Assembly: GCA_017506865.1 (NCBI GenBank) | Contig: JAFCMP010000510.1 | Span: 496,001-560,000 of the forward strand | Source of the DNA: Tribonema minus | Taxonomy: Eukaryota; Sar; Xanthophyceae; Tribonematales; Tribonemataceae | Direction: 5' to 3' | Length of the DNA stretch: 64,000 nucleotides | Shown: piece by piece, positions 8,831-62,494 of the stretch | How positions within the stretch are numbered: position 1 is the stretch's first letter | Layout: each line of letters begins with the position of its first letter | Made by a program: the position numbers and the translations under genes | Notes under the pieces: model-generated | What the model saw: the letters and a program-made list of their open reading frames with translations, nothing else | What the model was told of the DNA's origin: nothing | Database searches by the model: none

Positions 8831-8903
8831 CTATTCAAGCTTCTCGCCGCACACGATGGTCTCCTGCAGGTCGTACTCCGCCTGCAGGCAGATCTGGCGG
8901 TAC
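8831..8903 (-). CDS. Giant gene, exon 30 (C-terminus, stop)
   Basis: Acceptor with a strong pyrimidine tract (ccctttttTgccgagtgccag), then YRQICLQAEYDLQETIVC and GEKLE followed by TAG at 8831-8833. Enters in phase 2, matching the preceding exon. The compact charged ending looks like a true C-terminus. Confidence 0.65.

Positions 8904-62494: not shown

Follow-up and report, generated by a model that had tools for sequence, protein, structure and literature searches.

Decayed tandem copies of exon edges lie within introns and are in excess at splice junctions

Introns in the DNA analysed here hold tandem, partly decayed copies of the edges of their neighbouring exons (called echoes below), and the arrays that these copies form are biased towards splice junctions; the echoes decay in a way that looks neutral, the exons are constrained, and in two pairs of paralogues each gene has echoes private to it. 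We think it somewhat more probable than not that recurrent tandem duplication centred on the junction, followed by neutral decay, explains the pattern. Short tandem duplications, mostly with periods of 80-350 bases, would recur across junctions, with one breakpoint ~15-75 bases inside the exon and the other in the adjoining intron, and would double the splice site. The original exon-side site would presumably stay in use, leaving the mRNA unchanged, and the second copy would be spliced out. That copy would then drift as neutral intron DNA, with the exon held by selection, so that an echo is left behind, and repeated events at the same edge would build arrays and lengthen the intron.

The window is the whole 64-kb stretch analysed (G000:C507:496001-560000), from a genome of 158 Mb in 554 contigs. 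Three sets, together 294,490 bases or ~0.2% of the genome, were analysed: set W, the whole window; set H, 43 merged pieces (170 kb) around 60 exons with kinesin (PF00225) or P-type ATPase (PF00122) homology, which are the best 30 of 132 kinesin and the best 30 of 40 ATPase exon matches; and set R, six 10-kb stretches from arbitrary places in the same genome. Exons were called by a self-written hidden Markov gene finder, run on the genomic sequence alone, that was seeded with the homology exons in frame and trained for six rounds on W, H and R together; the homology exons were pushed towards coding, and their edges were picked by the gene finder. It predicted 167 exons in H, 47 in R and 46 in W, and by its gene models GC is 0.68 in coding and 0.55 in noncoding DNA. 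The donors that it learned are mostly C/A-A-G before the junction and GTGAGT after it, and the acceptors mostly GCAG before and G after.

An array was scored as junction-crossing when it covered at least 15 exonic and at least 5 intronic bases at a splice edge, and random placement was modelled by 500 shuffles in which exon-internal positions were barred. An edge was counted as carrying an echo if the partner copy was mostly noncoding; 401 edges were considered, of which 101 are homology-supported. Most edges are predicted. Where the gene finder takes a tandem array for an exon, the count of junctions is inflated, and the homology-supported subset gives the safest numbers.

Self-alignment of the window gave 87 direct-repeat pairs, ~80 of them local, concentrated at 12-24, 34-36 and 49-63 kb; the copies are adjacent, in the same orientation and local to one place, as expected of local tandem duplication. 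Arrays occupy 4% of the noncoding bases at 36.5-48 kb versus 54% at 48.1-62.9 kb, and in the exon-bearing stretches of the window they make up 38-64% of noncoding DNA (spacers counted), compared with 10-19% in the other samples. An earlier note on this DNA had described same-orientation, decayed copies next to at least 20 of 30 minus-strand exons; tandem duplicates with decay are indeed present, and its count was roughly right, if not exact, since strict rules score an echo at 19 of the 31 minus-strand exons predicted in 8831-62494, and relaxing the rules brings the number to 20. It gave units of about 110-340 bases; the best-pair periods are mostly 78-390 bases, with outliers of up to 1122 bases, and the period histogram has a broad hump at 100-200 bases, on which we base no claim of nucleosome-sized units. 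Six copies, not the eight claimed, are the most that could be resolved at one edge, and the supposed decay with distance from the exon is not clear (rank correlation 0.15, p = 0.19). The trend is weak: at 22 of 31 edges the copy at the far end of the array has diverged more than the one at the near end. The principal arrays and the exons next to them are as follows:

12278-12585, minus strand: acceptor-side echoes of predicted exon 11984-12059
13566-14097, minus strand: acceptor-side array of predicted exon 13310-13452
16847-17266, minus strand: donor-side echoes of predicted exon 17367-17492
20554-20956, minus strand: acceptor-side array of predicted exon 20382-20472
23170-24114, minus strand: donor- and acceptor-side echoes of predicted exon 23321-23472
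34036-35123, minus strand: donor-side array of predicted exon 35124-35291, six echoes
35376-35662, minus strand: acceptor-side echoes of predicted exon 35124-35291
35701-36135, minus strand: donor-side array of predicted exon 36136-36291, 133-base unit
49544-49605, minus strand: donor-side echo of exon 49830-50076, 92% identity
49830-50076, minus strand: predicted exon with echoes on both sides
50077-50383, minus strand: array of highest identity, on the acceptor side of exon 49830-50076 (159-base unit, 2.2 copies, 99%)
50833-50944, minus strand: predicted exon with an acceptor echo at 51095-51201
51275-52013, minus strand: five donor-side echoes of exon 52088-52332, in units of ~165 bases, each with a GTGAG donor
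52088-52332, minus strand: 245-base predicted exon with a KCNH/EAG-like segment (phmmer match to KCNH2 chains, E 0.012, weak; paralogue on contig C36); the best donor-side array derives from the donor edge of this exon
53557-53814, minus strand: two donor-side echoes of exon 53891-54073, one strict and one relaxed
53891-54073, minus strand: 183-base predicted exon with echoes on both sides (counterpart at C36:6236-6397, 70% amino-acid identity)
54194-54471, minus strand: two acceptor-side echoes of exon 53891-54073
54753-55169, minus strand: donor-side array of predicted exon 55170-55426
57729-58321, minus strand: donor-side array of predicted exon 58322-58742, one of whose echoes was probably called as an exon (58134-58222)
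61035-61245, minus strand: acceptor-side echo of the long predicted exon 59739-60916, within which lies a small predicted exon, itself probably an echo
61430-61515, minus strand: donor-side echo of predicted exon 61633-62075, 91% identity; the gene finder took 61440-61487 within it for a short exon
62621-62861, minus strand: acceptor-side echo of predicted exon 62291-62494

Several short predicted "exons" probably represent echoes; examples are 61026-61112, 61440-61487 and 58134-58222. Minus-strand frames, X-masked, were scanned against Pfam, three of them at 48.5-62.5 kb and one at 34-48.5 kb; nothing useful emerged, PF03153 and PF12326 falling below cut-offs, and among four hand-joined predicted pieces no family rose above cut-off (three had no match and one matched TadE at E 0.47).

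A LINE-like open frame and two plus-strand frames resembling FNIP repeats lie among the minus-strand exons of the window, which the earlier note assigned to a single gene and which may belong to more than one. The LINE-like retrotransposon occupies 24576-32042 on the plus strand; its 2047-aa open frame (25813-31956), as far as scanned, matches the reverse transcriptase family PF00078 (E 1e-7), and the end of the element (1235 bases, 30808-32042) is repeated at 97.9% identity directly upstream (24576-25810). The other two plus-strand frames, 40242-41206 and 44399-45465, are related to one another (68% DNA identity) and have weak FNIP-repeat matches just below the Pfam cut-off; arrays are rare near them. 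Predicted plus-strand exons 2805-2931 and 3544-3721 together resemble plastocyanin (cupredoxin; PF02298, E 7e-4, just below cut-off). The window also has short telomere-like TTAGGG/CCCTAA runs, some of them imperfect (18401-18587, 36737-36779, 37003-37055), and long CAG/CTG runs with 93-96% matches (5993-6083, 38111-38240, 48002-48059).

The earlier claim that the duplications centre on splice junctions holds against random placement in W, H and R alike, and permutation of array positions against splice edges did not find uniformly placed breakpoints in this sample. In W, 20 of 29 arrays cross a splice edge, where 3.1 ± 1.6 are expected and none of 500 shuffles reaches 20; in H it is 47 of 77 arrays against 21.7 expected, again reached by no shuffle, and in the 60 kb of R 8 of 18 against 3.8 expected, a count reached by 7 of 500 shuffles. 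With position tied to junctions in this way in W and H, we rejected minisatellites unrelated to the genes as a candidate. When only the 101 homology-supported edges are used, 17 of 77 arrays cross one versus 8.4 expected, about twofold (3 of 500 shuffles). With coding sequence masked, which denies the frozen exon any advantage in detection, there are 54 junction-linked arrays and 43 others, from which at most 19 junction-linked ones would be expected, and at ≥90% identity 11 junction-linked and 10 other arrays (4.8 expected). A loose look at the background, in eight 3-kb loci picked by pattern (three of them overlapping), found repeat pairs in three.

Echoes are carried by 68 of the 401 edges (15 of 101 in the homology-supported subset). 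They occur on either side of exons, as the earlier note had it, at 38 of 200 donors and 30 of 201 acceptors, and this near-equality makes a cause that acts at only one kind of splice site less likely. All but one of the 68 edges (67) have the partner copy on their intron side, and in the best pair at each of the 68 the exon part is 16-125 bases long and includes one edge only, the exonic share being ≤75 bases in 62. Twenty of the 43 H pieces have no echo, compared with 15.5 expected if edges were independent, which indicates a widespread process that is not peculiar to one gene.

Could such a bias arise with no hot spot at all? If duplications fell uniformly, those inside exons would be purged, and those at junctions would survive by virtue of a redundant splice site and stay visible longer because the exon is frozen. 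The exon does have this frozen effect, and duplications across junctions should indeed survive; both were built into simulations of uniform duplication, with purging inside exons and a detection advantage from the frozen exon. Ten settings without a size filter or large indels, some with intron decay two or three times echo decay, gave pooled crossing fractions of 0.14-0.36, and single runs reached at most 0.43 (homology set), against an observed 0.64 of 124 arrays by the same measure (H 0.64, R 0.50, W 0.72). An earlier version of the simulation gave, per run of 8 to 36 arrays, 0.25-0.37 for H and 0.14-0.50 for R. R taken alone (8 of 18 arrays; single simulated runs 0.14-0.50) therefore lies within the simulated spread, which, like the roughly twofold excess at homology-supported edges and the 43 of 97 masked arrays that have no junction link, is what uniform duplication would allow; the 54 masked junction-linked arrays are more than the ≤19 that it predicts. 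Large intron indels were also considered as a source of the excess and rejected, since they lower the simulated crossing fraction (to 0.07-0.25) and do not raise it.

The length of the exon part also separates observation from simulation. At exons of at least 150 bases the unfiltered simulations give median exon parts of 66-121 bases, and the part is ≤75 bases in 28-48% of cases (seven unfiltered sets with at least 10 echoes; 25-67% in three simulated sets with 3-8 echoes), as against 48 of 52 observed cases and 14 of 15 at homology-supported edges. Simulations filtered for exon parts of up to 75 bases give crossing fractions of 0.05-0.22, and cutting the other duplications fourfold in addition, which amounts to a junction bias, yields only 0.43 for H and 0.25 for W; the model is thus still incomplete. 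In H and W, then, the junction bias exceeds survival and detection as modelled, and R lies within the simulated spread. Survival bias, which the earlier note had listed among possible causes, is insufficient as the sole cause for W and H and possible for R alone, and uniform duplication overall seems unlikely to us. We infer that a hot spot of mutation, and not selection or detection effects outside the model, produces the junction excess.

The differences between exons and their echoes bear on what happens after duplication. In the 41 pairs in which both parts align over at least 25 bases, the exon part diverges by 0.086 and the intron part by 0.170, with the lower value on the exon side in 36. 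By codon position the exon-echo differences number 82/1187, 73/1188 and 176/1182 (0.069, 0.061 and 0.149), a ratio of ~1:1:2 that fits an echo mutating freely and an exon changing only at synonymous sites. Of the codons that changed, 142 did so synonymously and 144 non-synonymously; 6 of 1142 codons are stops, and indel lengths modulo 3 are distributed 5, 9, 5, so that 14 of 19 are out of frame. The splice dinucleotides are intact in 50 of 65 donor echoes (GT) and 41 of 50 acceptor echoes (AG), about the neutral expectation by our estimate; tested as alternative exon ends, the echoes show neither frame nor splice sites held by selection. On these sequence comparisons, the differences fit a frozen exon and a neutral echo.

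The two halves of an echo are nonetheless unequal in a way that simple neutrality does not predict, the intron halves of many duplicates having decayed far beyond the expected twofold. When echoes are compared with echoes (28 edges), the exon-derived half diverges by 0.121 and the intron-derived half by 0.213, the exon half being lower in 67 of 76 pairs (unrelated sequence scores 0.293 by this measure). This could come from conversion by the exon or from faster mutation of intron-type DNA. That the exon-derived part is maintained, by conversion or by selection for decoy splice sites or alternative exon ends, would account for its lower divergence even between echoes and for recognisable homology that often ends near the splice signal. 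Against this, splice dinucleotides decay at about the neutral rate, the frame is lost, and non-synonymous and synonymous changes are at parity, all of which counts against selection more than against conversion; a similar drop in similarity past the splice signal also appears in simulations in which only the real signal is frozen. We regard maintenance of this kind as improbable, and the same frozen-signal simulation led us to reject junction-precise copying, which the sharp fall in similarity had suggested.

In another reading, 50-70 bases of exon edge would have been copied into the intron ~100 bases away by templated short-patch copying (template switching), without the spacer. Many pairs of high identity align over less than half a period: among 20 junction pairs of ≥88% identity, 10 do so and 3 align over ≥90% of it. 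In uniform-duplication simulations most alignments run the full length (with large indels, about half to three quarters of them do), and faster intron decay does not reproduce the short ones. In 26 of 35 partly aligned pairs tested, the intron-side continuation has no clear homology, as patch copying predicts, but the other 9 do show it (z > 2), compared with 7 of 104 random controls and with 4 of 35 continuations on the exon side. This residual homology indicates that at least some are true tandem duplications in which the intron half decays unusually fast or the exon half slowly. Moreover, visual comparison in the P-ATPase paralogues described below suggests that the intron sequences behind exon and echo are homologous, and copies of exon interiors, which patches should also produce, are few in introns (9 pairs). 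Patch copying therefore appears quite improbable as the general origin of the echoes, and we retain junction-centred tandem duplication.

Paralogous genes bear on the timing. The channel-like gene of the window has a paralogue on contig C36 (L075, C36:2501-7500, reverse strand), in which the counterparts of exons 52088-52332 and 53891-54073 have 66% and 70% amino-acid identity, respectively. The gene finder called the former as a 245-base exon with the same donor end; it called the counterpart of 53891-54073 longer (503 bases), and the acceptor edge is not confirmed there. The 245-base exon has five donor-side echoes in the window and two acceptor-side echoes, ~170-180 bases apart, in the C36 paralogue. 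Each of the nine echoes compared resembles the exon of its own gene more than that of the paralogue (one by a single base), and one window echo differs from its own exon (11/69) more than the two paralogous exons differ from each other (8/69). In the P-ATPase genes on C114 and C445 an echo accompanies the same donor in both, and the differences are 8/64 between the exons, 5/64 and 4/63 between each exon and its own echo, and 13/63 between the echoes. Judged from these alignments, the channel-like and P-ATPase echoes suggest events after the genes split, or homogenisation since. Across paralogous exon edges, 2 have echoes in both genes, 9 in one and 15 in neither, too few to judge sharing. A genome-wide search with one stretch of the 51275-52013 array returned five matches, four in the array itself (query included) and one in the paralogue, and by this one search the unit is not dispersed in the whole genome.

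These comparisons also bear on whether the exon model is wrong and the repeats ordinary minisatellites, or whether the arrays are assembly errors. The exons are predicted, and some of the short ones are probably echoes. Homology-defined exon edges, however, show the same pattern, the C36 paralogue supports both edges of the 245-base exon, and the differences have a three-base periodicity; copies mostly differ by several percent to 30%, which assembly error does not produce. Such explanations are largely refuted and we consider them very improbable.

What might place breakpoints at junctions? The step in GC between exon and intron is larger at edges with echoes (0.157, n = 71) than at others (0.091, n = 375; Mann-Whitney p = 4 × 10⁻⁵). 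This is a lead and no proof, and the larger step might itself result from the arrays; slower decay of GC-rich DNA as a cause of the bias was considered and has little support (GC of non-junction copies is 0.571, against 0.550 in noncoding DNA). Together with the near-equality of donors and acceptors, the GC step points to composition or chromatin, rather than the splicing machinery, as what lies behind the centring. We tentatively extend this, with a confidence that falls somewhat short of even, to the proposal that junctions throughout the genome are duplication hot spots on both sides, with an exonic breakpoint within ~75 bases, that introns accrete outward as datable neutral copies, and that a step in composition or chromatin, not splicing, sets the breakpoints.

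Lengthening of introns is usually ascribed to transposons and random insertions. Accretion of edge copies would be a further way for an existing intron to lengthen with its exon unchanged, and if junctions attract duplications then exon edges are a mutational as well as a splicing feature. Since the exon serves as a fixed reference, each echo would be a small clock, and the rate and position of the process could be measured from a single genome.

Our literature search found no title or abstract opening that names a pattern of exon-edge echoes, subscription papers being mostly outside its reach, and the nearest known systems share parts of it. Tandem duplication of whole exons, as in mutually exclusive exons, also places tandem exon copies in an intron, but echoes carry one edge only and have lost the frame. 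Gao and Lynch reportedly described, in 2009, internal gene duplication with intron creation, the outcome being new introns or exons. It is alike in that short direct duplications within genes involve splice sites; it differs from the present case, where growth affects an intron already in place, the exon stays as it was, and a single edge is copied, often repeatedly.

Small tandem duplications formed by fill-in of breaks and end-joining are described in human and mouse cells with induced breaks, and are alike in being short and in the near-blunt joins expected of them, although the abstract makes no link to splice junctions (PMC8355091). That pathway would be marked by such joins together with dependence on Pol alpha-primase, CST and end-joining. 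In our sample, five one-unit non-junction pairs, among 40 examined, abut with 0-1 bases of overlap. Introners are likewise repeated sequence within introns, but they are dispersed, and the unit tested here occurs only in its own array and one paralogous exon (PMC9860276). In the AGGT model of intron gain, a tandem duplication inside an exon supplies a second splice site and a new intron (PMC4974935, PMC2891723); the likeness is that the second splice site from the duplication makes the event tolerable. Nearest among the intron-gain examples is a case in potato in which a duplicated intron-exon stretch is used as a new intron and exon (PMC4974935). Unlike in AGGT intron gain, the unit described here spans an existing GT/AG junction, its partner lies in the intron at nearly every edge (67 of 68), and an intron already present is extended, with none gained.
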